From: Acidobacteriota bacterium
Lineage (GTDB): Bacteria; Zixibacteria; MSB-5A5; GN15; FEB-12
Assembly (NCBI GenBank): GCA_035529075.1
Contig: DATKXK010000010.1
Span: forward strand, 353,401-417,400
DNA length: 64,000 nt
Direction of reading: 5' to 3'
The notes beneath the pieces were generated by a model. It saw only the letters and a list, made by a program, of their open reading frames with translations, searched no databases and was not told the origin of the DNA. The translations under genes were made by a program, and so were the position numbers. Position 1 is the first letter of the stretch; each line of letters starts with the position of its first letter. This document shows positions 19,042 to 36,528 of this stretch, piece after piece.

Positions 19042-19548
19042 ATGAGAGCCCTGAAGCTTTTGGTTCCAGTCATTGTGATAACGACGTTAGGAGAAGGATG
19101 CCGGACTATGAATCAAAAACCCAGCGTTGAAGATGAGAAGGCACAAATAGGCGAGGTCATCAGCAACAGTATCGGCTGGGCGGCGAACAAGGACAAAGAA
19201 CTGTCCTTCAGCTGTTTTGCCGAAGACGAGGAATTGTTCTACTTCAGTCCCAGAGACGATGGCACCATTCACGGCCGCAAAGCATTCGTCGCTTTGACGG
19301 AAGGCTTCTTCATGTTGGATGATTTCAAAGCCGTCCGTTTTGAAATCCGGGACCTTCAGGTGAACCTTTCCCGATCCGGCGACGTGGCCTGGTACCACGC
19401 CCGCCTGGACGACTTCAATGAATGGAAAGGCCAGCCGGCCAACTGGGAGGACGTCCGCTGGACGGGCGTACTGGAGAAGCGCGACGGCCGCTGGGTGATT
19501 GTGCAGATGCACTTCTCTTCCCCCACTGATCGGCCCGAGAAGGGGTAG
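19042..19548 (+). CDS. SnoaL/NTF2-like protein with N-terminal hydrophobic leader (paralogue 1)
   Basis: The 168-residue product begins with a short hydrophobic leader (LKLLVPVIVITTL) ending at a cysteine (LGEGC), possibly an export or lipoprotein signal although the lipobox is not canonical. The mature part is an NTF2-like cone of the DUF4440/SnoaL_3 type, ending EKRDGRWVIVQMHFS. Such domains bind small ligands or act as isomerases and hydrolases. A paralogue sharing WKGQPANWE.VRWTGV.EKRDGRW lies at 20233-20754, with a cupin gene between them. Start at ATG 19042 after GGAAGGAG. Confidence 0.7.
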   Translation: MRALKLLVPVIVITTLGEGCRTMNQKPSVEDEKAQIGEVISNSIGWAANKDKELSFSCFAEDEELFYFSPRDDGTIHGRKAFVALTEGFFMLDDFKAVRFEIRDLQVNLSRSGDVAWYHARLDDFNEWKGQPANWEDVRWTGVLEKRDGRWVIVQMHFSSPTDRPEKG

Positions 19549-20232: not shown

Positions 20233-20754
20233 ATGCACGCAGCTTGTGACCCGACCGGCCGGTTTCTGGTGATCGCACTCATCTGTATAGTATGCCCTGG
20301 CCTGTTCATAGCCGTCGTTATGGCCGAGGCCGAACGGGAGGCAGGTTCAATGAACAATGAATGGGCGGCGGTTGAGCAGACTATCCACAACTGCTTTGGC
20401 TGGGCCGTGGAAAAGGATTTCGACCTGTTCTATCGGACAATTGCCGATGACTCCGATTTTATCAGTGTCACGCCATACAGCAAAGTGAAGTTCGGCGTCG
20501 ACGACGTAAAGGCGGGGGCGGGATTTTGGGCCAGTCCGGATTTCAAGGCGATCAGTCACGAAGTACATGATCTGAGAATCACATTCTCGCGGGAAGGCGA
20601 TGTCGCCTGGTTCTACTGCGTACTTGACGACCTCAACGAGTGGAAGGGTCAGCCCGCCAACTGGGAAAAGGTGCGCTGGACCGGCGTTGTCGAAAAGCGC
20701 GATGGCCGCTGGCGGATTGTGCAGCAGCATTTCTCGTGGCCGAAGGAAGATTAG
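20233..20754 (+). CDS. exported SnoaL/NTF2-like protein (paralogue 2)
   Basis: The 173-residue product has an N-terminal hydrophobic segment (FLVIALICIVCPGLFIAVVM) that looks like a signal peptide or anchor, then an NTF2-like domain. Its C-terminal half nearly repeats the gene at 19042 (DLNEWKGQPANWEKVRWTG). It starts at ATG 20233 behind AAAGGAGG. A rho-independent terminator and the first tRNA-Leu fragment follow directly after its stop codon, so this is the last gene before the tRNA-Leu fragment array. Confidence 0.7.
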   Translation: MHAACDPTGRFLVIALICIVCPGLFIAVVMAEAEREAGSMNNEWAAVEQTIHNCFGWAVEKDFDLFYRTIADDSDFISVTPYSKVKFGVDDVKAGAGFWASPDFKAISHEVHDLRITFSREGDVAWFYCVLDDLNEWKGQPANWEKVRWTGVVEKRDGRWRIVQQHFSWPKED

Positions 20755-20822: not shown

Positions 20823-20930
20823 AAAAAACTCCCTTGCGGTGCATTTTTGATCTTCGTAACCTATTGCCGGCCGGAACGGTGGCATGGGCAGACACCCGGG
20901 GCTTGGGAAAAAATTCCGGCGATTCGGCTT
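20823..20930 (+). repeat. tRNA-Leu promoter and 5' part, fragment A
   Basis: TTGCGG (20834-20839), 17 bp and TAACCT (20857-20862) match the tRNA-Leu promoter. The tRNA 5' part follows with an 11-nt shortening shared only with fragment B, running into GACACC and an anticodon-arm remnant CGGGGCTTGGG. From 20902 it continues into CTTGGGAA...TTCCGGCGA, a non-tRNA sequence shared with fragments B, C and F. The 3' half of the tRNA is absent. Confidence 0.85.
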
Positions 20931-21082
20931 CTGACTGAACCACAACACAATACGAAATGGGGAAGGGCGTTGACGCCCGAAGCTTCAAGTACTACTTCGC
21001 ATTGATTTGGACCATTTTGGACACGAATTAGCCACATTTTGGCCACATGAGCATCACGAGAGTTATAGGCAGTGCCGGGGCA

Positions 21083-21856
21083 CTACGGCCGTATCGCCAT
21101 CCATGTCACATAGACTGATGTCAAATCATCAATAGATGTTCCATCACTGTACTTCGACACTGTAATATCAAACCCAGTCCAGTTACCGGCGGAGCCTTTT
21201 ACGTCCGCAACCGCCTTGATCGCTGCACCCTCAACGAGCCCATTGGCAGCTCCTCTTAAGACAACAGTGAGGAACATGTGCGGCTTTTCGGTGCTCGTGA
21301 ACGGACTTCCGAAATCTATTGTCGTTAGTCCATAATGCTCAATCATATCAGCATTCACCACACCATCGAATGCACCCGACTCACCGATACTCGAGACAAC
21401 CACCCCCGCCGAGTCGGCATATTTGGCATAATCAGCCTGCCACGCCTTGTAGGCGTACGGTGCTGAACACAAACGGGTCCGCGGTGCCAACTCCGGGTCC
21501 TCACCGACCTGAATGCCCAGCCATAGGTCAGGGTCGTTGGTGAATGTCCAGGGGGGCAGGCCTTCCTTTGATCCAAGCTGCCAGTTGAAAAGACCGTTGA
21601 CAACCAGGACCGTGCACGATGGGCTGATCCACTCCCGATCGGTCGGGGCGGTGCTGAGCGAATCATTCCAGATCCTGAAGGTGAGCACGTAATCGCCGTC
21701 GGTGACCGGGTTGTGGTCGGTGTCGGTAAGCCTCCCCTGGTAGTTGATCAGGTGGGGGACACCGTCCAGAACCTGGGTCACACCGTTGGACGCCGGCATG
21801 AAAGCGGCACAGAGCAGAAGTGCCCCTGCCGCGCGGTAGATGTTCCTGCGTCGCAT
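21083..21856 (-). CDS. secreted tail-fibre-like protein
   Basis: The 257-residue product has a signal peptide (AAGALLLCAAFMPASNG) and the motif HLINYQGRLTDTDHNPV followed by DGDYVLTFRIWND, a secreted beta domain seen in many proteins of FCB and related bacteria and resembling phage tail-fibre or collagen-like stalk openings. The middle (APYAYKAWQADYAKYADSAG) resembles the region before the receptor-binding part of such proteins. The C-terminal 80 residues form a beta-rich domain I cannot assign. It is the first gene of module A-B and is transcribed against the tRNA promoter remnant, with its own minus-strand promoter at 21928-21955. Confidence 0.65.
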   Translation of the reverse strand: MRRRNIYRAAGALLLCAAFMPASNGVTQVLDGVPHLINYQGRLTDTDHNPVTDGDYVLTFRIWNDSLSTAPTDREWISPSCTVLVVNGLFNWQLGSKEGLPPWTFTNDPDLWLGIQVGEDPELAPRTRLCSAPYAYKAWQADYAKYADSAGVVVSSIGESGAFDGVVNADMIEHYGLTTIDFGSPFTSTEKPHMFLTVVLRGAANGLVEGAAIKAVADVKGSAGNWTGFDITVSKYSDGTSIDDLTSVYVTWMAIRP

Positions 21857-22509
21857 GTTTCTATCTCCCGTTTCGATTCGTTTTTTTCGCCTGTTGATGA
21901 TAGGTCAGAGATGTACGATCAACTTATAAGATAGGCATTGCAGCCTATGTTGCAAGAGGCAGATTGGGCGGAATGCTTATGGCCGCTCGTGAGGCTTCCG
22001 GCTCAAGGCTCGAAGTCACTGATAATCATGCAGTTGGCGCAGGGACCTTTTACTCGGGAGTCTCAGCTTTGTGAGTTTTGCCAGGAAAGAATTTGGACTC
22101 TCGGGCAACATTTTGACGAAACCTGAGAACCTCGGGACCCGTAAGGCATATTACTAGTCTGACAACAAGATGTAACATCCTGGAAATGCCATGACAGACA
22201 ACTGGATTCCGAAGCGCAAAACTATAGTAGGTCCTGTCTACAGAGCGATTCTTCAAGTTACTGAGTCGGACATCTGCTCTGGAATTCTGTCGTCAGGAGC
22301 GCTTCTTCCGCCTCAGGGTGAAGCGGCCGACAGGCCGGGAGGGGCTCAGAACCCTGCCGGCGGAGACAGCATGAGTCGCCGGACGACAGGACCCTGGCTG
22401 ATGGACACATTGGTCGGTTAAACGTGAATTTCATCTATAAGAATTGTCTGAAAACATGCCCAGTCAATTACAGGAACTGATATGGGCGATGAATCGTAGG
22501 AGGGTCAAG
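21857..22509. other. divergent intergenic region
   Basis: No gene recognised. It carries the minus-strand promoter for the tail-fibre-like gene, with a small palindrome ATAGGC...GCCTAT (21931-21948) inside the spacer that could be an operator, and the ribosome-binding site for the WD40 gene (AGGAGGG at 22498-22504). Confidence 0.4.
21928..21955 (-). promoter_or_regulatory. promoter of the tail-fibre-like gene
   Basis: Reading the minus strand, TTGCAA (21955-21950), 16 bp and TATCTT (21933-21928) form a plausible sigma70 promoter about 70 bp before the start codon. The inverted repeat ATAGGC/GCCTAT overlaps the spacer. Confidence 0.45.
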
Positions 22510-24129
22510 GTGGTTGCACGCATTCTCACGAGCTTACTCGCAGGCAAGTCCGGTCATTTCAGGCCCCATTTCATGCTCAGCCTTGCGATACCGGCGTTTG
22601 TCGGAGGTATTCTGTTTGCAGGTTCAGAAGCGGTCGGTGCCGGAGCGGAAGCAGCCAATTTTCCGTGCGTCATCACAACCGAAAATGCCTCAGAGGTCCA
22701 GTTAGTAGAGACGCTGAGCGAGCATACCGACAGAGTCTGGACCGTGGCTTTCAGCCCGGATGGCAGTCTGTTGGCCTCGTGCGGAGAGGATGGATCGGTG
22801 ATCGTTCGACCGGTCGACACCCTTAGTTCTACGACTGTGTTGACGGCTAGTTATTGGGTGATAGGTTTGGCCTTTAGTCCTGATGGTCAGGTGCTTGCCT
22901 CGGGAGAATACGTCGGCCCGATACGCCTATGGGATGTTGCAACAAGTACCCAGATAGACATGTTGATGGGTCATACCCAGGGATGTTGGAGTCTGGATTT
23001 CCAGGAGAGTTCCGGGACGTTGGTCTCCGGGAGCTTAGACGGCACCGTTAAACTGTGGAACCCGTCCACCGGTGCACTTATCAACACGCTTGAGGGCCAC
23101 TCGGGAGCGGTGTTGTCGGTCGACTTCAGTCCCACCGAGGACCTGATCGCGTCATCCGGAACCGATTATGATATCTGGCTTTGGAATAGCCTGAACGGCG
23201 ACTCGGTACGTGTTCTTGAAGGCCACACGGAGAACATAGGGTTCGTCAAATTCAGCCCGTCCGGTACTCATCTGGCTTCCTCGGCGGATGACGGGACCGT
23301 CCGCCTCTGGGACGTGGCGACTGGTGATCAGGTGTGGAGTCAAAATGCCGGGCAAAGTTGGGTGAACTGTGTCAACTTCAACCCCGACGGCACCCTCCTG
23401 CTTACGTGCGGCCATAACGGCTCGGTAGTCCTGAGAGAAGCCGCCACCGGCAATGAGCTGCGCCGGTTGACGGATCACACCGAGCAGGTCTTACGCGGTG
23501 CATTTCATCCGGGAGGCGCGATGTTCGCCACCGCCAGCTGGGACCAAACTGTCCGCATCTGGGCGATCCCGACATCCATCGGCTCGACAAGCCACACTCC
23601 CGTCGAACCCTTACCGACCGACTCGGTCGTGGTGCTTTCGCAGGTGTCCGAATGCGGGGGCATCACCAGTGTCACACTCCATTACGACATCGGAGCCGGG
23701 TTTCAAGCTGTTCCCATGTTCGATGACGGCGCTCATGGCGACGGATCGGCCGGTGATCTCACCTTCGGAGCAAAGATACCTCCCGTACCGCTGGGGTCTT
23801 CAGTAAAGTACTATGTTTCGGTCATGGATAACGATGGTGCCACAGTCGTCGATCCTGTCGGAGCTCCTGATGTCTGCCACGAGTACACCGTTCCGTGCTG
23901 TGTAGGTGTTACCGGCAATGTGGATGCTGATCTGGGGAACACCATAGACATTGGCGATCTTACCGCGCTGATCGGATACTTGTTCATTCCACCGAACGAT
24001 GTGCCCGCCTGTATGGAAGCCGCGAACGTGAATGGCGACGAGGGTGGCGTGATCGACGTGGGCGATCTGACGGCTCTGATCAGGTACCTGTTTATCCCGC
24101 CTAATCCATCACCGGTAGACTGCGGCTAA
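22510..24129 (+). CDS. secreted WD40 propeller protein with dockerin-like end
   Basis: Seven WD repeats (for example HTENIGFVKFSPSGTHLASS ending VRLWDVAT) make a complete beta propeller. It is followed by the beta domain AVPMFDDGAHGDGSAGDLTF shared with the protein at 7326-8393, and then two dockerin-like calcium loops (GDLTALIGYLFIPPN and GDLTALIRYLFIPPN). The paired dockerin end is a hallmark of secreted Zixibacteria-type proteins and probably anchors or assembles the protein outside the cell. I chose GTG 22510, with AGGAGGG five nt upstream, giving a basic N-terminus and a signal peptide (LSLAIPAFVGGILFAG); the frame opens earlier (TTG 22444, ATG 22456). It is the last gene of module A-B. 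Confidence 0.8.
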   Translation: MVARILTSLLAGKSGHFRPHFMLSLAIPAFVGGILFAGSEAVGAGAEAANFPCVITTENASEVQLVETLSEHTDRVWTVAFSPDGSLLASCGEDGSVIVRPVDTLSSTTVLTASYWVIGLAFSPDGQVLASGEYVGPIRLWDVATSTQIDMLMGHTQGCWSLDFQESSGTLVSGSLDGTVKLWNPSTGALINTLEGHSGAVLSVDFSPTEDLIASSGTDYDIWLWNSLNGDSVRVLEGHTENIGFVKFSPSGTHLASSADDGTVRLWDVATGDQVWSQNAGQSWVNCVNFNPDGTLLLTCGHNGSVVLREAATGNELRRLTDHTEQVLRGAFHPGGAMFATASWDQTVRIWAIPTSIGSTSHTPVEPLPTDSVVVLSQVSECGGITSVTLHYDIGAGFQAVPMFDDGAHGDGSAGDLTFGAKIPPVPLGSSVKYYVSVMDNDGATVVDPVGAPDVCHEYTVPCCVGVTGNVDADLGNTIDIGDLTALIGYLFIPPNDVPACMEAANVNGDEGGVIDVGDLTALIRYLFIPPNPSPVDCG

Positions 24130-24322: not shown

Positions 24323-24430
24323 AAAAAACTCCCTTGCGTTCCACTTTTGGTCTTTGTACCTTATTGCCAGCCGGAACGGTGGCATGGGCAGACACCCGGG
24401 GCTTGGGAAAAGATTCCGGCGATTCAGCAC
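24323..24430 (+). repeat. tRNA-Leu promoter and 5' part, fragment B
   Basis: TTGCGT (24334-24339), 17 bp and TACCTT (24357-24362), then the shortened tRNA 5' part as in fragment A, ending CGGGGCTTGGG. The non-tRNA sequence CTTGGGAA..GATTCCGGCGA follows at 24402-24422. Fragments A and B are alike over about 150 bp including the terminator, so they are sister copies. The promoter reads toward the SPARTA operon. Confidence 0.88.
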
Positions 24431-24592
24431 GTGACAGACATCCAACGCATCCCACCGCAGGGCAGGGGGATAGGGCGGATTGGTTTGAGTGTTACGTTGG
24501 ATGGTTTTGTATTGATTTGGGCGGAAAGTAGTTACTGCTTGGTCACAACCTAGTGCCTATGTTCCACCCATCTGTAGGACACGCGAAACAAT

Positions 24593-25996
24593 ATGAGAAA
24601 TTTCGTTTTTCTTAGTCACGCGAATCCCGAAGATAACGATTTTGTATGGTGGCTAGCCCTGCAACTTGCGAGGCGCGGGTATAACGTTTGGTGTGACCTG
24701 ACAAGGCTTCTAGGGGGAGAGGACATATGGAAGGATGTGGAAACAGCGATTAGGGATGGTTGCTCAAAGTTCCTATACGTACTCACAAAGACGTCGAACG
24801 CAAAGACGGGACCGCTGCAGGAGCTTCAAGTAGCTCAGAGTGTTGCTCGTGATCATGGCCTACAGGATTTCATAGTTTCTCTGCATCTTGACGATTTGCC
24901 ATACCGGGATATCAATATCCAACTAGGTCGAATCGAGGCTATTCCATTTGAGGAGAGTTGGGCCAGCGGGCTGGGCAGACTGCTGAAGAAACTTGCGGCC
25001 CACGGCGTGCCAACCGACCGCCGGCTAACACCAGACTGGGTAACGTCCATGTGGGCGGTAACAGGCAGCAGGCAGCGAATCATTCGACAGCGGCAGGAAC
25101 ACCTCACAAATTGGTTTCGAATAACGAAGCTGCCTAAGGAGCTACACGTACACAGTTTGCGCGACTCAGTTGGCCGGCCGGATCACCTAGTCCTGGAGAC
25201 ACAGTTCCCGGTAATCGTACATAGAAACAGCCTGGTTTCGTTCGCATCCGAGGAGGATTTGCCAGATAGTGCGAGAAAGGCGGTATCTTGTACCCGTCGC
25301 CTAACCATATCATCGACTGACCTGATTCCGGTGGCAAGAGCGGGTGGATCAGGTAGGCGCGACAATATACACCGTTTCGTGTCCCGACTGCTAAGGTCAG
25401 CGTGGGAAATCATGCTTAATGAGCGCGGGGTGCCAACATACTCACTGTCAAATCGCACAAAGTGTTTCTATTTTACAGAAGATATTCTTAGAGGAAAACG
25501 AATTGACTTTCAAGGTGTGGATGGAGCAAGAGCTCACCGTCAGCTCATTGGGTTCAAGACTGTGGGCAAAAAGAGTGTGGGCGGTCGCGCAAAGAGAATG
25601 TGGCATTTTGCGCTTAGCTCTAGGCCGTTACTTCATCCAGAACTAGCATATGTTATAAGACCGCACGTGTTGTTCTCTGATGATGGGGTAACCATTTGGG
25701 AGAGTAAGGAGCGGCTGCATGCCGCCCGACGAAGTCAGTGCAAAGATTGGTGGAATGATGACTGGAGAGATCGTATCCTTGCCGGTGTGATGTGGCTGAG
25801 TGACGGGGCGGATATGATTCAGTTACCAATCAGCAATGATGCAACACTTCATGTAGAACGCTCGCCTGTTATCGTGTCAAGTCCTGTGACCTATGCAGGA
25901 CCTGTGTCTGTTGAACTGGAAACGTTTGACGAACACGAGGACGAATCTGACGTTGGTACTGAAAACTGGGAATATGATGAGAGCGATACATCCTAG
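24593..25996 (+). CDS. TIR-APAZ protein of a SPARTA immune system
   Basis: The 467-residue protein joins a TIR domain (residues 1-135: NFVFLSHANPEDNDFVWW, then GEDIWKDVETAI) to an APAZ domain. W46 and E50 have the W-x3-E spacing of bacterial TIR NADases, making E50 the likely catalytic residue. The APAZ part shows its hallmarks RMWHFALSSRPLLHPELAY, VLFSDDGVTIWESKERLH and WWNDDWRDRILAGVMWL. In SPARTA systems TIR-APAZ pairs with a short Argonaute and, on RNA-guided recognition of invader DNA, oligomerises and destroys NAD+, killing or stalling the cell. The last 28 residues are strongly acidic (13 Asp/Glu), like the autoinhibitory tail described for SPARTA. The stop lies 3 nt before the Argonaute start. 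The DNA is visibly more AT-rich than the flanking chromosome. Confidence 0.93.
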   Translation: MRNFVFLSHANPEDNDFVWWLALQLARRGYNVWCDLTRLLGGEDIWKDVETAIRDGCSKFLYVLTKTSNAKTGPLQELQVAQSVARDHGLQDFIVSLHLDDLPYRDINIQLGRIEAIPFEESWASGLGRLLKKLAAHGVPTDRRLTPDWVTSMWAVTGSRQRIIRQRQEHLTNWFRITKLPKELHVHSLRDSVGRPDHLVLETQFPVIVHRNSLVSFASEEDLPDSARKAVSCTRRLTISSTDLIPVARAGGSGRRDNIHRFVSRLLRSAWEIMLNERGVPTYSLSNRTKCFYFTEDILRGKRIDFQGVDGARAHRQLIGFKTVGKKSVGGRAKRMWHFALSSRPLLHPELAYVIRPHVLFSDDGVTIWESKERLHAARRSQCKDWWNDDWRDRILAGVMWLSDGADMIQLPISNDATLHVERSPVIVSSPVTYAGPVSVELETFDEHEDESDVGTENWEYDESDTS

Positions 25997-25999
25997 ACG

Positions 26000-27508
26000 A
26001 TGAGACTTCTCTACATACAGGAGCCGCTAATTCAATTTGGGTATGAGCAGAAGCTCGAAGATCCGCGAGACGGGCTCACTCTGTTCGGCCCACTAGACCA
26101 GGGCAGACCGTATGGCATTAGAATAGGTGTTGTTGGGACCGCCGACGGCGTACGGCGGTTCAAAGTGTGGGCTAGGCGGATGCAGTCTCCAATCTCCAGC
26201 ATGCCTTCTACTGTTGCCCACCCTCTTTTCCCAGGATTCGAAGCTGCATTTCTGATACCGTGGGCCTCTGAACCAGCACTTGAACTCGAGGTTTGCACGG
26301 AGACATTGAACAGACAACTGCGTCTCGATGATAAGTATCAAAGAGTCTTCGAGACGGTAGATCTTTTCGTAAAGCCAATTGCGACCGCTTTGCGTGAAGA
26401 AGAAACTACAGTGGATGTGTGGTGTGTGATGATTCCAGACGAAGTCAAGACGTACTGCAGGCCGAAATCGTTTGTGCAGGTCGATAGGAGAATCGTAGCT
26501 AGGTCTAAACTACCTTTCAAGTACGCTAAGAAGCTCAGAAATGAACCGTCATTGTTTAAGGAGGATAACATAAAGGCAAGACCTTACCACTACGAGGTCA
26601 ATTTCCACAATCAGTTAAAGGCTAAGTTGCTGGAGTATAATGCTCCTACTCAGATAATCCGTGAGAGCACAATCATCCCCGAGGAGTTCACAGATAGCCA
26701 AGGTAGACCAAAGCGAGATCTGTCACCAATGCTCTCTGATATAGCGTGGCACTTGTCAACCGCGTTTTTCTACAAAGCCGGCGGTCGCCCATGGAAGATT
26801 GGTGAAGTGCGCGAGAATGTCTGCTACATTGGACTTGTATTTAAGCAGGACGTGCGGTATTCTGATCCACGTTCAGCATGTTGCGCAGCGCAGCTGTTTC
26901 TTGATTCCGGTGATGGCATCGTCTTTAAGGGAGATGTTGGTCCGTGGTACAACAAAAAGTGGGGGGAGTTCCATCTTAACCGTGCCGCGGCCCGCGATCT
27001 GGTCCGAATTGCTATCGAGACGTACAGTGAAAAGAGAGGCTCCGAACCAAAGGAGTTGTTCTTGCATGGAAAGGTGAGATTCAATGATGAGGAATGGTCT
27101 GGATTCAGAGATGGCGTCGGGTCCAGTACCAACCTCGTCGGAGTTCGTATTCGCGATTCAGATGACATAAAGCTTTATAGTAAACTTGACCACCCGGTCT
27201 TGCGGGGACACGCATTGGTCGTGGACGAGCATACGGCCTATCTCTGGACCAAGGGGTTTGTACCTCGACTTCAAACCTACCCGGGGAGGGAAGTGCCACG
27301 GCCGCTTCTCGTGGAGGTGTGTCGTGGAACTGCCTTAATAGAGACAGTTCTCAAAGATATTCTGATACTAACAAAGCTTAACTACAACGCGTGTCGTTTC
27401 GCTGATGGGTATCCTGTAACGCTGAAATTCGCCGACGCAGTTGGTGAGATTCTGACTGCCGGACCTCTGGAAAGGGTTCCGCCCTTGCCGTTTAGGCACT
27501 ATATCTGA
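26000..27508 (+). CDS. short prokaryotic Argonaute (MID-PIWI) of SPARTA
   Basis: The 502-residue protein has the length and layout of short pAgos: an N-terminal MID-like part (VDVWCVMIPDEVK, then YHYEVNFHNQLKAKLLEY) and a PIWI domain ending LTKLNYNACRFADGYPVTL and PFRHYI at the extreme C-terminus. PAZ and N domains are absent, as expected. The DEDX catalytic tetrad of slicing Argonautes is not apparent, so it should bind guide RNA and target DNA without cutting and switch on its TIR-APAZ partner. Start ATG 26000 follows the TIR-APAZ stop by three nt, so the two are co-translated. tRNA-Leu fragment C lies about 135 bp downstream, ending module B-C. Confidence 0.92.
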   Translation: MRLLYIQEPLIQFGYEQKLEDPRDGLTLFGPLDQGRPYGIRIGVVGTADGVRRFKVWARRMQSPISSMPSTVAHPLFPGFEAAFLIPWASEPALELEVCTETLNRQLRLDDKYQRVFETVDLFVKPIATALREEETTVDVWCVMIPDEVKTYCRPKSFVQVDRRIVARSKLPFKYAKKLRNEPSLFKEDNIKARPYHYEVNFHNQLKAKLLEYNAPTQIIRESTIIPEEFTDSQGRPKRDLSPMLSDIAWHLSTAFFYKAGGRPWKIGEVRENVCYIGLVFKQDVRYSDPRSACCAAQLFLDSGDGIVFKGDVGPWYNKKWGEFHLNRAAARDLVRIAIETYSEKRGSEPKELFLHGKVRFNDEEWSGFRDGVGSSTNLVGVRIRDSDDIKLYSKLDHPVLRGHALVVDEHTAYLWTKGFVPRLQTYPGREVPRPLLVEVCRGTALIETVLKDILILTKLNYNACRFADGYPVTLKFADAVGEILTAGPLERVPPLPFRHYI

Positions 27509-27644
27509 ACCGGACAGGTGCCCGGCTACGAGGTTTGAGGCCAAAAAGTGGCTTTTTGCTGCTGGCTTTCGGATACCGGTCTGATGAGGCTATCTAGTCT
27601 ACCCATTTGCAGCTACATAGGATTTGGTCGGCGCCACGGGAGCC

Positions 27645-27756
27645 AAAAACCCCCTTGCATCTCCCGCAGCCCACATCTAACTTACTGCCGCATCATTGAT
27701 TGCCGGAATGGTGGAACGGGCAGACACCAGGGACTTAAGAACTGATCCCGACGAAA
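27645..27756 (+). repeat. tRNA-Leu promoter and 5' half, fragment C
   Basis: TTGCAT (27655-27660), 17 bp, TAACTT (27678-27683), then 18 nt to GCCGGAA at 27702. The tRNA 5' half is full length and matches the intact gene through ACACCAGGGACTTAA (27724-27738). It then leaves the tRNA and runs into GAACTGATCCCGACGA. It is the best-preserved fragment and marks a sharp break at the anticodon loop. Confidence 0.92.
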
Positions 27757-27987
27757 AGGCATCTGACTGACGATCAATACAGTGCGATGTATAGAAAGGG
27801 TTCAATCATACTTGTGTAACGATTGCTCTGTATCAGCTTGGGCTGTTTTGGTGCAAGAGTGGTCCCAAGTTGGTCACAGAGTAGTTGGTAGCCTCTATGT
27901 TACTGACAATGACTGGGTGATTCGTCCAGTCTCAAGCGACGCCGAAGACTGATTCTCTGGTGTGGACAGGTTCAGCGCAGAAGACGG

Positions 27988-29034
27988 ATGAAAGCGATGA
28001 AACTAGACATTCAACGACTTGCGGACTGCATTGAAAACCAAGCTGAGCCGGAACCTTTCTCCGGTGTGGTTTACTTGACCAAAGGTGCAGAAGTCCTGTT
28101 TGAAAGAGCATGTGGGTTTGCGATCAAGTCGGAGTCGATTATCAACAAGATCGACACTAGATTTCAGATGGCATCCGGGTGCAAGATATTCACCGGTGTG
28201 GCCATCTGTCAGCTTGTGGAAAGTGGTAAGCTTGGATTTGACTCCCTTCTAAGTGAGAACATCGATGCGGAGTTTCCGAACTATTCGCCGGACATTACTA
28301 TACATCAATTGTTAACGCACAGTTCAGGTATAACTTCCTATTTTGAAGAGGATGTTGATCCCGATTATGAAGCATTGTGGCGAAATACGCCGATCTACAA
28401 CATTAGAAGTCCAAAGGACTTCCTCCCGTTGTTTCAATCGAAACATATGAAGTTCTCGCCAGGGGAGAAGTTCGAATACAACGATGCAGGATTCATTCTA
28501 CTGGGCCTGGTGGTTGAGAGTATCACTGGTATCGACTTCTCAGAGTATATTCGACAGAACGTGTTTAATCCGGCTGGGATGAGAGACTCGGGGTACTTTT
28601 CGACTGACCAACTACCGGAAAGAACGGCCTATGCCTACATCAAGAAGAACGATGGTACTTGGCGAACAAACTTCTTTGCAGTTCCAATTACGGGAGCACC
28701 CGATGGTGGTGCATATACCACTGCGCCGGATATGGCCAAGTTTTGGAGGGCGCTTCTAGAGGGTAGGCTCCTGGGCGATGAGATGACAGGACAAATGATG
28801 GAAGCGAAGATTGTCTCGTTGTCAGACCCAACAAGTTCCCATTATGGTTACGGTGTATGGATTGACCAGTCAGATGGGAAGAAGAGAAAGGTTCTTGTTG
28901 TAGGATACGATCCGGGAGTCGCGATGAAGTCAGCATGCTATTTGGACGAGAGTGTTACTCTCACCGTAATGGGTAATACGTCTGAAGCTCTGTGGCCTAT
29001 GTACAGGAAGATTGAGATGATGCTGGGTCTTTAG
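27988..29034 (+). CDS. serine hydrolase (class C beta-lactamase family)
   Basis: The 348-residue protein has the SxxK motif SGCK in FQMASGCKIFTGVAIC and the matching tyrosine region FEYNDAGFILLG (the usual YxN appears as YND). These motifs place it in the beta-lactamase/DD-peptidase (PF00144) superfamily, whose members hydrolyse peptides, esters or beta-lactams. No signal peptide is visible, so a cytoplasmic esterase or peptidase is more likely than a secreted lactamase. Start ATG 27988 (or 27997). It is the only gene of module C-D and, like SPARTA, is AT-rich compared with the chromosome. Confidence 0.82.
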   Translation: MKAMKLDIQRLADCIENQAEPEPFSGVVYLTKGAEVLFERACGFAIKSESIINKIDTRFQMASGCKIFTGVAICQLVESGKLGFDSLLSENIDAEFPNYSPDITIHQLLTHSSGITSYFEEDVDPDYEALWRNTPIYNIRSPKDFLPLFQSKHMKFSPGEKFEYNDAGFILLGLVVESITGIDFSEYIRQNVFNPAGMRDSGYFSTDQLPERTAYAYIKKNDGTWRTNFFAVPITGAPDGGAYTTAPDMAKFWRALLEGRLLGDEMTGQMMEAKIVSLSDPTSSHYGYGVWIDQSDGKKRKVLVVGYDPGVAMKSACYLDESVTLTVMGNTSEALWPMYRKIEMMLGL

Positions 29035-29901
29035 GCTACTCTCAGAACAAGCAGTTCGATCTACCATGTCACAAGCTCCGGTAGCCCCAGATTTCTTCCA
29101 GGTCTCAAGTTCTCTGGAGGAAGCCAGGGCTACAACAGAGCTTAGATACGTTGTGTGTCCGACTCCGCTACGGTTTTTCCTACACGCGAAACGTAATCCA
29201 CGGTACTCGAAGAGCCTCAATCATCAGCTCCGGAAAGGTTCCTGGATAGGGCCTGCTCGCGGTCTCATTGATCTTCGAGCATGCTTGTGATAAGAAGTTT
29301 CATCGCCGTAATATGATAATCAATGGAGGTCAATGGACGGCGGGACACCAGGGACTTTTTGTCCCTTGCATTTCTCTCCAAACATTGATAACTTCTTGTT
29401 GGATCGTCAATTGCCGGAGTGGTGGGTTGATTTGGGCCGTTCTGGAGCGAAAACGGTCCTGAACCAATCACAGCGATAGATCCCCGAAAGTACGTCGATT
29501 GTAATCCGAACTCACAGGAGGGGGCGGAAAAGCCCGCGGAGGAGGGCCGAGTGGGAGCGAGTCTGCCGTGGAGGCCGAGCCGCCATGGGCCAAATCCGGC
29601 CTTCGCGCCGACCCGGTTTGCTGCTTCTCGGTAAGGTGAGAAACGAGACCACTGGAAGAAGACCGCCGTCGGGCAAAGCTGCGGCCTGGGGATCAATTTC
29701 AGGTGCGGATTCGCTTAAGGCGTACAGGGGACACCTGACTCAACATCAGTCCTAATCGACTCATTTATAATGCCTTAGCCGGGATAGGGTATGGGGGAGA
29801 AATTTATGGAAATTATTGGGAACTTAATAGTAGTATCTACGTAGTAATATCCTGTAATTAGCACTATAAGCCAGCTTGCAATACCGTGAGAGGCCAATAA
29901 G
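29035..29901. other. gene-free region containing fragments D
   Basis: Apart from the tRNA-Leu fragments at 29344-29428, nothing here looks coding. A purine-rich segment at 29515-29570 and flanking self-complementary GC tracts may fold, but I recognise no RNA family. The stretch before the PadR gene (29770-29890) is AT-rich and probably holds its promoter. Confidence 0.35.
29344..29428 (+). repeat. tRNA-Leu fragments D1 and D2, back to back
   Basis: D1 is the tRNA piece GACACCAGGGACTT (29344-29357). It joins directly to D2, a promoter with TTGCAT (29366-29371), 17 bp and TAACTT (29389-29394), then 18 nt to GCCGGAGTGGTGG (29413-29425), after which tRNA similarity stops. The D1-D2 join lies at TCCCTTGC, a sequence that occurs both in the tRNA anticodon arm and at the promoter -35 region of the intact gene. 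Confidence 0.75.
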
Positions 29902-30267
29902 GTGACAGGAAGCGAATCGGCCCATAAGAAATTCCAGAAGGAACTGAATTCCGGGACTGCTGCGTTGGTCCTGTTGAGTGTTCTGGAGCGGGCTTCCGAG
30001 CCCATGTACGGATACCAGATAGCCAAGCATATTGAGGCCGGGCGTGACGACGTACCGGTCAAGCAGGGCGCGCTGTACCCGGTACTCAGATCGCTTGAGG
30101 GCGCGGGCCTGTTACAGAGTCACGTGGAACCCTCCGTGTCGGGTCCGCCCAGACGTTACTATCGGATAACGGATATGGGTCGTGATACACTCAGACGCTG
30201 GGTAGAGATCTGGGATCAGACAAGAGCATTTGTAGATGATACGTTGAAAGGGGATCAGAATGGATAG
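29902..30267 (+). CDS. PadR-family transcriptional regulator
   Basis: The 121-residue protein is a winged-helix PadR regulator: LVLLSVLERASEPMYGYQIAKHI, KQGALYPVLRSLEGAGLL and PRRYYRITDMGRDTL are its recognition and wing elements. It starts at GTG 29902. It overlaps the next gene by 8 nt, a standard arrangement in which PadR represses its own operon with the membrane partner. PadR proteins dimerise and release DNA when a ligand binds. It is the first gene of module D-E. Confidence 0.9.
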   Translation: MTGSESAHKKFQKELNSGTAALVLLSVLERASEPMYGYQIAKHIEAGRDDVPVKQGALYPVLRSLEGAGLLQSHVEPSVSGPPRRYYRITDMGRDTLRRWVEIWDQTRAFVDDTLKGDQNG

Positions 30268-31150
30268 AGGAATTCCTGAGTACCTTGCTCAGCTAAGGGT
30301 AGAGCTGGCCGAAAGCGATCCGGCAACGATACAAGATGCCCTCTCGGACGCTGAAGAACATCTGAGCACGGCGCTGGCTAACGCACTCAAAGCAGCCCCG
30401 GATCTTGCGAGGAGCGATCTGCTGGAATCCATCGTGAAGAAGTACGGTACGCCTGCGGAGATTGCGGCGGCATATAAGGACATCGAAGCACACACAAGAC
30501 CGGTGTTGGAGATAGCGAGGTCAGGTGTGAGACGTTCTCGAACCTCCAGTTTCTATGGGGTAGTCGGTGATGCCCGGGCCTGGGGGTCACTGATGTATCT
30601 TCTGGTATCGATGCTGTTGGGCCTGGCCTATTTCTCATGGGCCGTAATTGGTTTCAGCCTCTCGCTGGAGTTGTTGATCCTGGTCATTGGGCTTCCCGTT
30701 GCCACGCTCTTTCTCCAGTCAGTAAGGGGCATTGGGCTTGTCGAAGGGCGCATTGTGGAGGCATTGCTGGGAGTTCGTATGCCGAGGCAACCATTGGTCT
30801 CACACCGGGAACTGGGCTGGTGGAAACGTCTTAAGATGCTGGTTAAGGACAAACGCACCTGGACGACTCTGGCGTACATGGTACTGTTGCTTCCTTTGGG
30901 GATACTCTATTTCACCATAGCCATTCTCATGTTTGCCCTTTCTCTTGAGTTTATAGCTGGTCCTATCGTCTTGAATGCTTTGGATCTGCCGTTTATCATG
31001 ATCGGGCATTACTCCATCTATCTGTCCCTGGAGTGGGCGCCGCTGCTCATGTTTGCAGGTATTCTGATTCTCATGGTGAGCATGCACGTGGCCAAGTTCC
31101 TTGGCCGGATGCACGCAAGGTTGGCCAGGGCGATGCTGATCAGACGCTGA
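30260..31150 (+). CDS. HAAS-domain membrane sensor protein
   Basis: The 296-residue protein starts inside the PadR gene. Residues 1-75 form a helical HAAS/DUF1700-like domain (YLAQLRVELAESDPATIQDAL, then SIVKKYGTPAEIAAAYKD), which typically accompanies PadR regulators. The rest has two pairs of membrane helices (SLMYLLVSMLLGLAYFSW and TTLAYMVLLLPLGILYFT, each followed by a second span), matching the putative sensor domain family seen with PadR and two-component systems. It probably anchors or modulates PadR or senses envelope state. tRNA-Leu fragment E begins about 95 bp after its stop. Confidence 0.8.
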   Translation: MDRGIPEYLAQLRVELAESDPATIQDALSDAEEHLSTALANALKAAPDLARSDLLESIVKKYGTPAEIAAAYKDIEAHTRPVLEIARSGVRRSRTSSFYGVVGDARAWGSLMYLLVSMLLGLAYFSWAVIGFSLSLELLILVIGLPVATLFLQSVRGIGLVEGRIVEALLGVRMPRQPLVSHRELGWWKRLKMLVKDKRTWTTLAYMVLLLPLGILYFTIAILMFALSLEFIAGPIVLNALDLPFIMIGHYSIYLSLEWAPLLMFAGILILMVSMHVAKFLGRMHARLARAMLIRR

Positions 31151-31244: not shown

Positions 31245-31316
31245 CAAAAACTCCCTTGCGTCCGCCAGCATCCCCATCTAACTTATTGACGCGACCGCGA
31301 TTGCCGGAGTGGTGGG
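31245..31316 (+). repeat. tRNA-Leu promoter and 5' end, fragment E
   Basis: TTGCGT (31256-31261), 17 bp, TAACTT (31279-31284) and 18 nt to GCCGGAGTGGTGG (31303-31315). The promoter and spacer (TAACTTATTGACGCGA) are identical to the intact tRNA-Leu, making this the closest relative of the working promoter. Similarity ends in the D arm, as in fragment D2. Confidence 0.88.
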
Positions 31317-31490: not shown

Positions 31491-32441
31491 GTGAGACAGG
31501 CTGGTACGGTCATTAGGGTCTTACTTATTTGGGTTTTGGCAGCCGGAACGTCAGCGGCGGGCTCAGTTGGTCTGACTTACAATAATTACGGAATCAGAGT
31601 TGGCAACGCACCGATTGTCCACGGCCTGAGGATCAACGCAGTTGACCGGGATGTAGAACAGGTCGACGGTATCAACCTGACCTTCTGGGCGCCGCGGGGG
31701 AAGCACCCGAATCCGCGTTTTCGGATGAACGGTCTGGCGGTGGGGCTGACGGTTCCGGTGATGCACCATCTATCCGGCATGGGGGTTGGTGTCCTTGGCA
31801 TCGGTGCGGACAAGGTAAGCGGGATAGCAGTAGCCGGCCTCGGCGCCGGCATCGATGAGATGACCGGGATCGGTATTGGCGGCCTGGGATTAGGTGGGGA
31901 CAATCTGACCGGGTTGTTTGTGGGAGGTCTGGGGGCGGGTGCGGACAAGATAACTGGCGTTGGTGTCGGCGGCCTGGGAATCGGCGGCGACCATCTGGAA
32001 GGTCTTTTTATCGGCGGCCTGGGGGCGGGCGCGGACGAGATGATTGGCGTTGGCATCGGCGGCCTGGGAATTGGCGGCGACCATTTGCAAGGTATGTTTA
32101 TCGGCGGCCTGGGAATCGGCGGCGACCATCTGGAAGGCATGTTTGTTGGCGGTCTGGGTGCCGGTGGCGATGATCTCACAGGATTGTTTATTGGGGGTCT
32201 GGGCGTCGGGGGCGATCGACTCTCCGGCGTCGGTATAAGTGCGTTCACGATCCGGGTGAACGAATTACGGGGGATTCATATTGCCCCGTGGGTTCATGCC
32301 AAAGATGAGTCGAACGGATTCTCTGTGGCGCTGTTCAACTACTCACGCGAGCTACACGGCCTGCAACTTGGCATCCTCAACTGGGCCGGGAACCAGGAAG
32401 GGATATTGAGACTGCTGCCGCTGGTGAACTATCACAGATAA
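31491..32441 (+). CDS. secreted glycine-rich 15-residue repeat protein
   Basis: The 316-residue protein starts at GTG 31491 behind GGAGGTGA and has a signal peptide (VIRVLLIWVLAAGTSAAG). Residues 101-250 are ten repeats of 15 residues with the form GLGIGGDHLEGLFIG, expected to stack as a right-handed beta helix or roll. The ending HGLQLGILNWAGNQ...LPLVNYH is typical of the LA_2272-type surface repeat proteins found in Leptospira and FCB bacteria. Likely location: outer membrane or cell surface. Function unknown. At DNA level the repeats are 45 bp units, which makes the locus prone to copy-number change. Confidence 0.8.
   Translation: MRQAGTVIRVLLIWVLAAGTSAAGSVGLTYNNYGIRVGNAPIVHGLRINAVDRDVEQVDGINLTFWAPRGKHPNPRFRMNGLAVGLTVPVMHHLSGMGVGVLGIGADKVSGIAVAGLGAGIDEMTGIGIGGLGLGGDNLTGLFVGGLGAGADKITGVGVGGLGIGGDHLEGLFIGGLGAGADEMIGVGIGGLGIGGDHLQGMFIGGLGIGGDHLEGMFVGGLGAGGDDLTGLFIGGLGVGGDRLSGVGISAFTIRVNELRGIHIAPWVHAKDESNGFSVALFNYSRELHGLQLGILNWAGNQEGILRLLPLVNYHR
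31791..32240 (+). repeat. ten tandem 45-bp coding repeats
   Basis: In-frame units encoding 15 residues each, with the shared core GGCGGCCTGGG. Adjacent units are similar enough that slippage or recombination could add or remove copies without breaking the frame. Confidence 0.8.
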
Positions 32442-32574
32442 GCCGCCCGAGTCCATACTATGCGGCCGAACTTCCGCTACGAACGGCCCGGGCAGTTCAC
32501 CGTCACCTTTTCGTCCAATACTCGGTCACCGATTGAAAACCATGTAATCGCGGTACCGAAATTCTATCAAAGAG

Positions 32575-32964
32575 CAATCTCCTCAATTACGGTGCGGCAG
32601 CCTGGATCGCCAGGCGCAGTTCGTGTGCCAGGATATTACGGATCTGACCTTTCCCGACGCCACGTTCGACGCAATCTGCTCCTACTATACGATTATCCAT
32701 ATTCCCCGACAGGCGCACGAGGCCATCTTTCAGCAATTCTATCGTCTGCTTAAGCCGTCCGGTCTGGCTCTGCTCTGCCTGGGGGCAGAGGACCTGGAAG
32801 ATGACATCGTCGAAGATTATCTGGGCGTCCGGATGTATTGGAGTCATTACGACGTCGAGACGAACCTGGATCTGATCGTCGCGTCCGGATTTGTCCCAAT
32901 CTGGTCGCGAATCGTGGAAGATGCCACTTCGCCCGGGCCGGGCCACCTCTTCGTTCTGATATAG
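32575..32964 (+). pseudogene. class I SAM-dependent methyltransferase, 5'-truncated
   Basis: The frame encodes FVCQDITDLTFPDATFDAI, YYTIIHIPRQAHEAIFQQFY, LLKPSGLALLCLGAEDLEDD and MYWSHYD, which match the C-terminal two thirds of a small SAM methyltransferase. The N-terminal GxGxG cofactor loop is missing; upstream in this frame there is no plausible start before unrelated sequence. It is therefore a remnant, probably cut when module E-F was assembled. The first usable start (GTG 32623) would give a 113-residue protein unable to bind SAM. Confidence 0.65.
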
Positions 32965-33022: not shown

Positions 33023-33142
33023 GACAAGAGACTTGCGTCCCACGCCAACAAATCCTAACTTACTGCCGCATCGCTGATTGCCGGAGTCGTGGAACAGGCA
33101 GACGCCCGGGGCTTGGGAAGAGATTCCGGCGATTCAGCAGGC
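33023..33142 (+). repeat. tRNA-Leu promoter and 5' half, fragment F
   Basis: TTGCGT (33033-33038), 17 bp, TAACTT (33056-33061), 18 nt, then GCCGGAGTCGTGGAACAGG from 33080 through GACGCCCGGGGCTTGGG. The sequence CTTGGGAAGAGATTCCGGCGA follows (33112-33132), as in fragments A, B and C. Its leader TAACTTACTGCCGCATC matches fragment C, so C and F are sister copies. Confidence 0.9.
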
Positions 33143-33309
33143 GATAGACATCTGGGGCATTTCACCGGGCCGCAGTTACCCGATAGGGCTCCTGACCGAC
33201 AAGAGGGAGTAGACAGTGGGCTTTGGCGACCCAAGGGGTGAAGCCCACGTCCAGGTTTCATTTCTCACATTCCCCATGCCCTTTTGCTATAATGATCCAA
33301 TCAGAACCC

Positions 33310-36270
33310 TCATCTGCTCCGGTTGGTCATCTTATCCAGTCTGCCTCTGATTCGCAGCCGGAATGACTCACCTATGTTTCGGAGCTTCTCTTTGTCGACG
33401 ATCTCATCGATTCGTGGCAACAGAGCCTGGAGATCATCCTTTGAACCATGGTCAATTGCCTCTCTCCACATTGACTCTGCTCCATTGGTAAACGGGCTCA
33501 GATCGGCGTTGACGTCCTCATTGAAGACTCGCTCTGCCACCTCCAAGATCTTTCTCGTCAAAAACTCGAGCCAATGGAGCTTGTCCTTAGTCAGAATGTC
33601 TGCACCCCACAAGATTCGTATGTAGCGGGCAAATACTATTGAGAAACTACTCCAGTTCGATCCCGGTAACAGAAGTTGGTTACATAGATGATATGATCTT
33701 GGAGTGATCCTGTAGTCGTCGGCTGCTACAATCTCCGCTAGGTCTTCATGGTCAAATGACAAGAAGACGAAAAACCTCTCTGCCAACCTGCCCAGCACAG
33801 CCGAATATGCCCGCTTATCTAAATGACCAGCCTTCATCAGATGATCGATTAGAGAATAGATGTTAACTACTTGAACATTTTCTGACTGCAAGAACATCAG
33901 CAGCCGCAGATCATCGGTTACCAATGTAGTACCGTTGGCCTTCGCATACTTCAGGGTTTCAACTAACCAGTCACTCATGAAGGGGGATATATCACCGACT
34001 GTAAATGTGGCCTCTGACACATCATGAATAATCTCGACGCGATTGCTCTTTCGCAAGAATTCCCAGAGGCGCCGCAATTCCGGAATTTCGTGTATTAGGA
34101 GATCGTCCTGTATAGTGTGAAACAACTTCTCATGAACCAATACTCTCTTACCGCAGCGCTCCAAGAATCCAAGTAGATCTGATTTGGAAAGATCAAGCAA
34201 TGAGAGGTAATCTAACAGAATCGTATCGGAGCCTTCAAAAGTGCTTATAAGATTCCCAACGAAAGCAGCATCTGGTAAGGTCATATCGATGGTGAATTCA
34301 GGGTCATGGCGATTGCAGACGAAATCGGGATAGGTGCTGTTCGTATGATGCACTAGAACATAGGTTGGTACAGGGCTTCTCTTGAAGGATTCTCTCATGC
34401 GAACCCGTGCCCGCTCCTGATCGGTGAACATCTTCTTGATTTCATCCGTTAGTTGGCCGTGTTCATCTAGCGCCTTTACGGGGAAGACGATATTCTGCTC
34501 AGGAAACTCCTTCTGGAACGCAAGAAGGGAAGGTAGAAGCCTTCCAGCTTCGTCCTTACCAACCTGGCGTACGTACCGGAAAATGATGGCGCTGTAATTG
34601 GATAGAATCTCTTGTCGCACCGAGGCGCTAAGATTGGACTCATCGGCAAACCTCTTCGCGTGGTTCGCGGCGCTAATGGCTTCGGTCTTTCTATCAAGGA
34701 ACACGTTAATGAGAGCGACGTCGAGCCAGTAGTCCACATCCTTGTTTGCATTTGCCTCCTCTTCAAGATCTATTAAGATCCTGCGGGTTTGCTCTGGAGC
34801 GCCTTTATAGAGAAAGCGCTTTGCCAAAAGCTTCTTCTCGGGATATGAAATGGCACCGAAACCGGGATCATCTATCAGAGTGGTTAGAGCACTGTCAAAC
34901 TCTCGATTCTGCAACTGGGTGGTGAACTTAAGGAGGTTTAGGTGCTGGGCGAGTTCAGGAGGAAGCTCAGCACTGTCTATTAGACTCAGGGTTGCAGGCG
35001 CTTCGAGGAACTTTCCCAACAGCAGTTGGCACTGGACAATCCCAAGATGGATTTCGGGCATCAAGTACGGCTTATTCTGATCGGTTGCCAACCGTTCAGC
35101 CTCACGAAACAGTTTCAGCGCATTCTCAACATTTGATTTATCTTGGATCTCCGGGACCAATGCTAGGTTCTTGATATCACCTTCGTCTTTAACTGTAGTC
35201 TGGAGCAGGATGCGCGCCTTGATTGACAGGAGCTCCGGGTCCTCCGGCGTGTCTTGTAGAGCTTTGTCGCAGTCTTGCAGTGCAGTTGTGAGGTCACCTG
35301 TCTCTGCGCGCATCGATACGCTGAGCCGTACTACGGGCAGAACCTTAGAGGCTGCCTGTGTTAGGCGTTCGTCGAACCCGTCTATCAGATCAACACCTGC
35401 TTGCGAACCTCGGAGCCGATACGTCGCCCACACCATCGCGCTTAGCGGTGGCTCAAGTTCTGTCGCAGAGAGTTCCGTGTTGTTTTTTAGGGATTCCCAT
35501 ATGGCCGATATGGCGTTATAACCTCTTTGGATACTTTTCTTAGAATCCTCCTCGATATTGGCCAGTCCCAGATTGAGCTTAGCCAAGTAAAATGACGAGT
35601 CTTGATCCAAGGCTTGATGGAAGAACTTCTTAGCCAACTCCACATCGCCATGTTCATCTGGTTGATTATAGGAAACTCCTAAGTTGTTAAACACCCGAGC
35701 TCGTTCACGTTCAAGACCTGGTTCCTTTTTGATGTCAGCGAGTATCTCAAACAGTTGTGTTCGTGCCTCCTCAAACTGGCGACTGTGCAGATGTTCGAGA
35801 GCTTCTTTGATCCTACGCGAAATCTGTTGTTTTGCATCGTCCACATGCGACGGCACGACTCTGGTGTCAGTGGGAGTCAATGTTGGTTCAGGAGGTTCTA
35901 CTTGTCTAAAAGAAATGCTGCCAGATGGGGGAGGTGAGGGGGATTGCTCAGGCTGTTGAATCGCATTGTAGTTGATTGTTATTTTAAGGTTTTCAATTAT
36001 GTTATTCTGAAGAAGAGTTCCGCTAATCTTACTACCATCGTTAGTGTCAATAGATTGTTGCTGAAGAATGCCTTTAGTGTCATTCGTGGCACTTGGTTCT
36101 TTGGAAGACCGAAAAAGCAACCCGAATACGGCTACCGCGCAGGCGATGCTAGCAGGAACAGCAAATTCTGTCGGAATATCGACGAGCCAGTATTGACCGA
36201 AGAAGATAGCAAGTCCCGAAAAAACTCCTATTAGCGTGTTGCGCACCGATTCTTTCAATGTAAATCTCAT
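33310..36270 (-). CDS. large TPR protein with C-terminal PIN-like domain
   Basis: The product of about 986 residues has two membrane helices near the N-terminus (LIGVFSGLAIFFGQYWL and ASIACAVAVFGLLF), a proline-rich linker, then some 400 residues of TPR-like helices (ARVFNNLGVSYNQPDEHGD and others). The C-terminal third contains a PIN-like nuclease domain: acidic residues in TILLDYLSLLDL, LVHEKLFHTI and TTLVTDDLRLLMFL sit where PIN domains bind metal. TPR-PIN proteins of this type are predicted conflict (defence) effectors that cut RNA. I chose ATG 36270; the frame opens at GTG 36324. It is the only gene of module F-tRNA, on the opposite strand to the other cargo, and is AT-rich. Confidence 0.72.
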   Translation of the reverse strand: MRFTLKESVRNTLIGVFSGLAIFFGQYWLVDIPTEFAVPASIACAVAVFGLLFRSSKEPSATNDTKGILQQQSIDTNDGSKISGTLLQNNIIENLKITINYNAIQQPEQSPSPPPSGSISFRQVEPPEPTLTPTDTRVVPSHVDDAKQQISRRIKEALEHLHSRQFEEARTQLFEILADIKKEPGLERERARVFNNLGVSYNQPDEHGDVELAKKFFHQALDQDSSFYLAKLNLGLANIEEDSKKSIQRGYNAISAIWESLKNNTELSATELEPPLSAMVWATYRLRGSQAGVDLIDGFDERLTQAASKVLPVVRLSVSMRAETGDLTTALQDCDKALQDTPEDPELLSIKARILLQTTVKDEGDIKNLALVPEIQDKSNVENALKLFREAERLATDQNKPYLMPEIHLGIVQCQLLLGKFLEAPATLSLIDSAELPPELAQHLNLLKFTTQLQNREFDSALTTLIDDPGFGAISYPEKKLLAKRFLYKGAPEQTRRILIDLEEEANANKDVDYWLDVALINVFLDRKTEAISAANHAKRFADESNLSASVRQEILSNYSAIIFRYVRQVGKDEAGRLLPSLLAFQKEFPEQNIVFPVKALDEHGQLTDEIKKMFTDQERARVRMRESFKRSPVPTYVLVHHTNSTYPDFVCNRHDPEFTIDMTLPDAAFVGNLISTFEGSDTILLDYLSLLDLSKSDLLGFLERCGKRVLVHEKLFHTIQDDLLIHEIPELRRLWEFLRKSNRVEIIHDVSEATFTVGDISPFMSDWLVETLKYAKANGTTLVTDDLRLLMFLQSENVQVVNIYSLIDHLMKAGHLDKRAYSAVLGRLAERFFVFLSFDHEDLAEIVAADDYRITPRSYHLCNQLLLPGSNWSSFSIVFARYIRILWGADILTKDKLHWLEFLTRKILEVAERVFNEDVNADLSPFTNGAESMWREAIDHGSKDDLQALLPRIDEIVDKEKLRNIGESFRLRIRGRLDKMTNRSR

Positions 36271-36510: not shown

Positions 36511-36528
36511 ATTGACGCGACTCTGATT

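Follow-up and report, generated by a model that had tools for sequence, protein, structure and literature searches.

How does a complete defence operon come to lie alone between two pieces of a tRNA gene, with no mobility gene at its side? The question arises in the window, the whole stretch of 64,000 nt analysed here (G000:C10:353401-417400), where the original prediction had placed a SPARTA immune system as the cargo of a tRNA-bounded module. The two genes concerned are:

24593-25996, + strand: TIR-APAZ protein of SPARTA, 467 aa (Pfam TIR_2, 4.6e-15; PADLOC model PDLC02403 over residues 1-454, E 4e-122; PDB 8qlo_A, 2.8e-68)
26000-27508, + strand: short Argonaute (pAgo, MID-PIWI) of SPARTA, 502 aa (PADLOC model PDLC02378 over residues 2-502, E 3e-197; PDB 8ifk_B, 4e-159)

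Both proteins had been called full length and 3 nt apart, and the coordinates, PADLOC and PDB matches agree. Solved SPARTA chains match TIR-APAZ (E 3e-68) and the pAgo (E 4e-159) over the full length, with 8ifk_B and the window pAgo 49.5% identical over 497 aligned residues. In the TIR domain, the predicted W-x3-E pair is intact (W46-x3-E50), and a glutamate also stands at position 77, which we take to be the catalytic TIR glutamate, E77, of MapSPARTA. The organisms behind the SPARTA structures 8ifk and 8fex are presumably Maribacter and Crenotalea. The PIWI tetrad positions of the window pAgo hold V280, F324, K358 and D479, and because of these letters its PIWI domain can be classed from the sequence as inactive and the protein as no nuclease; PMC11156904, in the passages concerned, names V284, Y328, R362 and N484 as SPARTA PIWI positions, and chain 8ifk_B carries the same letters at the same positions. 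By all tests run, 24593-27508 qualifies by its sequence as a complete SPARTA operon, and it is an ordinary member of the family; the Maribacter and Crenotalea systems (PDB 8ifk, 8fex; PMC11156904) share its gene order, domains and inactive PIWI, with no difference of kind found in the parts of that source concerned. By analogy with SPARTA function as known, guide RNA and target DNA would assemble the complex, and the TIR domain would then destroy NAD(P)+. The SPARTA pAgo is sporadic, being present in 2 of 80 genomes of the order; the other copy, at L281 (G048:C37 1-14000), is 41% identical, and there is no further one among the 80.

The operon is flanked by nt 1-38 of tRNA-Leu(UAA) at 24370 and 27702, and no other gene lies between these halves, so that SPARTA is indeed their sole content. 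The fragments themselves are real and lie on the strand of the gene at 36528-36616. The unit is thus correctly seen, but the frame of a single module proved too small, since SPARTA is one of up to seven units stacked between 14913 and 36529. Apart from SPARTA, the array reads as follows:

14913-14993, + strand: degenerate att block, the leftmost found (half-plus-extension profile E 4.4e-6; extension alone E 0.02)
20870-21049, + strand: att block (half and extension), start of the WD40 module (extension E 5.8e-25; outside the extension training set)
21083-24129: cargo left of SPARTA, a 257-aa secreted-type protein (-) and a 561-aa WD40 protein (+) (Pfam)
24370-24549, + strand: left att block of the SPARTA module, half 24370-24407, extension to about 24549 (E 8.7e-29, in the training set)
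27640-27882, + strand: shared boundary, closing the SPARTA module on its right and serving as left block of the following one, with a TTGCAT-n17-TAACTT promoter-like stretch, half 27702-27739, extension to about 27882 and both arm repeats (extension E 9.9e-26, in the training set)
27988-29034, + strand: cargo, beta-lactamase-fold (PF00144) protein (Pfam)
29371-29459, + strand: truncated att, promoter-like stretch, about 14 nt of tRNA start and extension positions 90-126 (5' part E 3.4e-5, extension part 0.01)
29902-31150, + strand: cargo, PadR regulator and HAAS/Sensor membrane protein (Pfam)
31274-31315, + strand: truncated att, promoter-like stretch and about 14 nt of tRNA start (E 3.9e-5)
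31491-32964, + strand: cargo, 45-bp-repeat protein and methyltransferase fragment
33080-33178, + strand: degenerate att block, start of the last module (extension E 4.3e-4)
33310-36324, - strand: cargo, 1004-aa TPR protein
36528-36616, + strand: complete tRNA-Leu(UAA), right end of the array (ARAGORN and Rfam RF00005)

The last of these is the only complete tRNA-Leu of the window. Its 5' half recurs in five copies (14913, 20870, 24370, 27702 and 33080) and, further truncated, at about 29412 and 31302, always on the same strand. These halves end inside the anticodon loop, the best-kept ones reading GGGACTTAA, and match the intact gene at 27-34 of 38 positions. They had been taken for bare tRNA pieces; the tRNA half stands, but it is not bare, as about 140 nt of conserved non-tRNA sequence is attached, the same sequence following four of the window halves and likewise halves in other genera. 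A profile of half plus extension finds the two SPARTA-flanking sites, both of which are in the model, at E 4.6e-29 and 1.8e-34. The left arm of the SPARTA module retains its second repeat (GGTCACA) intact and the first in degenerate form, and neighbouring modules have repeats as long as 184 nt, at 89%, on their flanks. A -35/-10 scan gave no clear winner, and the promoter TTGC(G/A)(T/C)-n17-TAACTT was read by eye.

Three further observations concern the same region. About 60 nt before several window att sites, ahead of the tRNA start, stands TCCCTTGCG, which resembles the 3' anticodon stem of tRNA-Leu (TCCCTTGC); the likeness may be chance or a second core-like site. Tandem repeats of 45 bp (31786-32215) lie within a 316-aa protein that has no Pfam match, and two SnoaL-like genes (19042-19548 and 20233-20754) share a 140-nt repeat, 78% identical.

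A tRNA-Leu query in 61 genomes recovered, besides complete genes, many 5' halves with the same end point. The block they begin is about 180 nt long and consists of some 38 nt of tRNA-Leu 5' half followed by some 140 nt of non-tRNA DNA, which ends in TTTGGA(T/C) repeats and the pair GGTCACAAATTGGTCACA. Across aligned sites, conservation runs from tRNA nt 1 to nt ~178, beyond which it drops from 0.96 to 0.16 bits per column. At E <= 1e-10, the extension-only model R2, built without the tRNA half, hits 23 of 80 genomes from the order, with 38 sites in total; 27 of these strong sites had served to train it, and the model containing the half recovers 36 of the 38 as well. At E <= 1e-3, R2 reaches 33 of the 80 genomes, the weak sites including arm relatives beside reversed tRNA-Ser-like 3' ends. 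At the level of the phylum, the half-plus-extension model (E <= 1e-12) detects the block in 22 of 132 genomes, of which 21 belong to the order. Twelve genomes have a site and a complete tRNA-Leu no more than 25 kb apart on one contig, and in 12/12 the site is 5' of the gene and on the same strand. By this anatomy, the att block looks like the attP of a tyrosine integrase, and the boundaries, first described as tRNA fragments, appear to be integrase-type att sites common to many genomes, with a candidate integrase nameable in relatives. Two sites speak against the insertion of cassettes at tRNA-Leu: the extension alone at G037:C4 reaches only 4.4 bits in a model of the first ~65 nt, and the five att sites of G039 form one array (G039:C1 2263126-2282824) 0.55 Mb from the complete tRNA-Leu(UAA). 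No att block was found around the L281 SPARTA Argonaute in the 14 kb fetched.

Several unusual sites surfaced in the same survey. In L067 14459-14767 (G019:C2), about 308 nt separate a 5' half from the complete tRNA-Leu, with the extension alone inside, which looks like a cassette without cargo. At L307 and L310, weak arm-region relatives adjoin the reversed 3' end of an apparent tRNA-Ser and look like sister elements on the 3' side of a tRNA. In G064, G065 and G066, one-contig genomes of one genus, BLAST found no complete tRNA-Leu(UAA), although G029 of the same genus has one; G066 retains a lone tRNA-Leu 5' half with the extension. Two 26-nt repeats of the tRNA-Leu 3' end lie directly downstream of the gene at G029:C5 16598-16715.

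Bounded units could be delimited in 20 cases, five in the window and 15 in nine other genomes. They measure 990-8288 bp (median 3864), and the median position of the first ORF of at least 110 aa is 242 nt. The units are compact, each filled by one to a few genes. The absence of a recombinase or conjugation gene beside SPARTA had been noted from the start; tblastn with ~35 recombinase queries (E 0.01) found no integrase trace in the SPARTA module, in the other window units or in any of the 20, and no conjugation gene occurs among the proteins examined in the window and in the cassettes of other genomes. The Pfam scan covered 18 proteins of the window and 20 from cassettes in other genomes, the PADLOC scan 10 and 20, respectively. 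Besides SPARTA, defence-like cargo by Pfam or PADLOC comprises GmrSD with an Mrr-type nuclease and an AAA-TPR protein (cassettes of G039), a Ppl-like PHP-SMC protein (G029), a HerA-like ATPase (G007) and a RelA/SpoT-domain protein (G040). Cargo that is not defence-like includes an M20 peptidase, glycosyltransferase, AMP-binding, WD40, beta-lactamase-fold and secreted proteins. The 257-aa secreted-type protein of the window is 80.6% identical over 103 aa to the cargo of a G027 cassette, with a distance of 214 nt to the att start in either case. Single-operon units whose boundaries have intact halves (36-38 of 38) occur in G016, G027, G029 and G040.

In the genomes examined, tyrosine recombinases near tRNA genes lie mostly on the 3' side. 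One subfamily departs from this layout: its eight matches at E <= 1e-60, in 6 of 80 genomes, are all found immediately 5' of, and co-oriented with, a tRNA-Leu gene (isoacceptor UAA in five, CAA in two and UAG in one). The integrase frame extends into the tRNA in G012, G010, G017, G019 and G036, the last having an internal stop. In the integrase elements of G019 (tRNA-Leu CAA, 11.8 kb) and G037 (UAG, 8.6 kb), the far (left) end carries the 5' half of the element's own isoacceptor followed by the shared extension; both sites helped to train R2, their first detection having come from models containing neither. In 8/8 integrase elements an arm repeat lies 58-73 nt before the tRNA, inside the final codons of the integrase gene; in five of the eight, only one copy of the pair fits the pattern used. 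The repeat recurs at the same distance (-72 to -59) in 6 of 26 integrase-less right ends, a seventh having one copy at -129, as against 1 of 7 unoccupied tRNA-Leu genes and 7% of random intervals. Left and right repeats are of one type, by eye, in G019 CAA, G037 UAG, G016 and G071 and differ in G027. Two results weigh against movement of the cassettes by this integrase: with the pattern used, 19 of 26 integrase-less right ends, among them that of the SPARTA module, show no right arm repeat, and a search of the window's own genome for the integrase subfamily came up empty at E <= 1e-60. The original wording that such systems may be "moved and stored" fits the anatomy but does not extend to current movement in this genome. 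Six PF00589 matches do occur there, including types on the 3' side of tRNA genes.

Of 80 named relatives, 22 sit 5' of a tRNA, 24 sit at a reversed tRNA 3' end, 24 lack any tRNA within 700 nt and 10 show other layouts. A tree of these loci (27 of the 80 set aside beforehand, another 2 because of their length) clusters them by side of the tRNA, the 5'-side label changing 9 times versus 17.1 in shuffles. Support is 86/92 for the order's tRNA-Leu/SeC clade taken together with L178. Both L178, whose branch falls within that clade, and L217, which sits at a tRNA-Leu(UAA), come from Candidatus Zixiibacteriota, which is therefore probably the phylum of the window's DNA as well. Other candidates were discarded: the G039 integrase beside a fragment (2283 kb) belongs to another subfamily, found 3' of tRNA genes in G003, G007 and G012, and was not used, and an ORF of G000:C18 is on the wrong strand. 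A viral origin was rejected, as an att pattern had 0 matches in viral_contigs, where eight distant integrase relatives (22-41% identity) occur.

Taken together, SPARTA is, in our judgement, probably the cargo of a small integrase-less cassette, one of a stack at tRNA-Leu(UAA), inserted by an integrase acting in trans. The operon, the array, the att block, its sharing with integrase elements and the integrase-less cassettes are established at the level of sequence; that the candidate integrase moves the cassettes, that it does so in trans and that the array grows in a given direction we infer, cassette mobility itself being read from anatomy. A complete relative of the element would supply the tyrosine integrase in trans, and an attP composed of promoter and tRNA 5' half, joined to the ~140-nt arm with direct repeats, would recombine with the anticodon loop of the host tRNA-Leu gene. 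The insert would bring a new promoter and 5' half, so that the tRNA stays whole, while the old promoter and 5' half would be displaced leftward and left behind as a boundary; repeated insertion would build an array beside the intact gene. In genus g20, the DNA upstream of the leftmost G019 fragment resembles that of the unoccupied G070 tRNA-Leu (z 19), the likeness being weaker upstream of the complete G019 gene (z 6), which fits an insert that replaces promoter and 5' half. When flanks were compared, right flanks proved to be common to the pairs G000-G027, G019-G070 and G011-G034, and left flanks to G025, G029 and G066, but no clean empty site emerged; G011 and G034, considered for that role, differ by a 1.7-kb indel not bounded by tRNA halves. 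These two genomes share array parts and, therefore, arrays can be old. The window array is probably decayed, but, against serial insertion, its decay gradient is not monotonic with distance.

The same anatomy might instead reflect relics of complete integrative elements from which the integrase and other genes were deleted, without ever moving as cassettes, by CIME-type decay and accretion. We regard this as possible though somewhat doubtful. It would account for the missing integrase subfamily in the own genome, for the degenerate halves and arms and two truncated sites of the window, for the indel between the shared arrays of G011 and G034 and for those integrase-less right ends whose arm repeat sits at precisely the place expected for the end of an integrase gene. 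Set against this are the lack of any integrase trace in the 20 bounded units, their compactness, the near-intact halves around single-operon units in four genomes and the equal spacing between att and homologous cargo in two genera. Ordinary horizontal transfer followed by homologous recombination between att repeats, without any integrase, seems unlikely as the route by which SPARTA entered: the flanking repeats would suffice for homologous exchange and SPARTA is sporadic, but the arm repeats and the isoacceptor match of the halves are left unexplained. The two routes can nevertheless coexist.

Readings that dispense with integration fare worse. It is very improbable that the boundaries represent some regulatory RNA or tRNA-derived repeat and that SPARTA simply landed between two copies of it; the promoter-like stretch and conservation over genera would suit it, and tRNA-derived repeats are known in eukaryotes, but the block stands at the far end of integrase elements with its 5' half matched to their own isoacceptor, repeats occur at both ends, the sites are always 5' of the gene and co-oriented where testable, and 14000-37000 contains no Rfam family besides tRNA except one match below the gathering score. 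A split or group I intron-bearing tRNA-Leu with the halves as exons hardly merits consideration: the anticodon loop of tRNA-Leu(UAA) is a classic intron site, but a complete tRNA-Leu gene is present, no group I intron match appears at E <= 0.5 in 14000-37000, and the several 5' halves of the array have no matching 3' halves.

Under insertion of cassettes in trans, a single observation becomes a searchable element family, whose hallmarks are the 180-nt att block, a candidate integrase and numerous cassettes that lack an integrase, several with defence genes. If the integrase acts in trans, this would explain the shuttling and stacking of single defence operons without mobility genes, and the rare 5'-side layout offers a possible way to read insertion order. 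More tentatively, the locus may exemplify integron-like gene capture at tRNA-Leu, in which a sparse integrase on the 5' half would move one-operon cassettes (SPARTA, GmrSD/Mrr, HerA, Ppl, RelA/SpoT-type and metabolic genes) in trans, stacking them at the anticodon loop across the order, each with a fresh tRNA promoter. By anatomy, the boundaries differ from the attC sites of integron cassette arrays in being tRNA halves with direct repeats.

Among known systems, the tRNA/tmRNA-gene islands of Islander (PMC4383910) share, in the passages concerned, a complete tRNA on one side, a displaced fragment on the other, anticodon-loop crossover and a tyrosine integrase. The configuration of tRNA gene and co-oriented fragment that marks tDNA islands is present here, whereas the integrase on board is missing in 20/20 bounded units, which are, unlike those islands, integrase-less and stacked. 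The same passages give a 5' fragment for 159/3919 islands and list 4 tandems of three or more; the algorithm used there demands an integrase and a minimum of 2 kb. Accretion of cis-mobilizable elements (CIMEs), as treated in the parts of PMC5704250 concerned, likewise yields att-bounded, integrase-less units stacked beside one target gene, as seen here. CIMEs derive from ICEs/IMEs according to that text; the cassettes share arms with integrase elements, but they differ from CIMEs in the lack of conjugation genes among the proteins examined, in very small cargo and in using the tRNA 5' side. The additive flexible islands of Actinomarinales (PMC7771536), Methylopumilus (PMC10872708) and Alteromonas (PMC4119200) also place small cassettes at tRNA genes between partial-tRNA direct repeats, which in the passages concerned are the last 20 nt of tRNA-Lys, the last 52 nt of tRNA-Leu or unspecified parts, with no att arm or integrase assigned there; the cassettes described here differ in their tRNA 5' half, 140-nt arm and candidate integrase. 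Tycheposons, in the portion of PMC10872708 concerned, are cargo-carrying elements at tRNA genes with a tyrosine recombinase as well, but unlike these cassettes they span 4-200 kb and carry the recombinase on board. A literature search with subscription papers mostly outside its reach found no prior description of this att block or of SPARTA as such cassette cargo. The kind of element is thus known from tDNA islands, CIMEs and additive flexible islands, and what is new is the 5'-side layout, the defined att block and the small cassettes.
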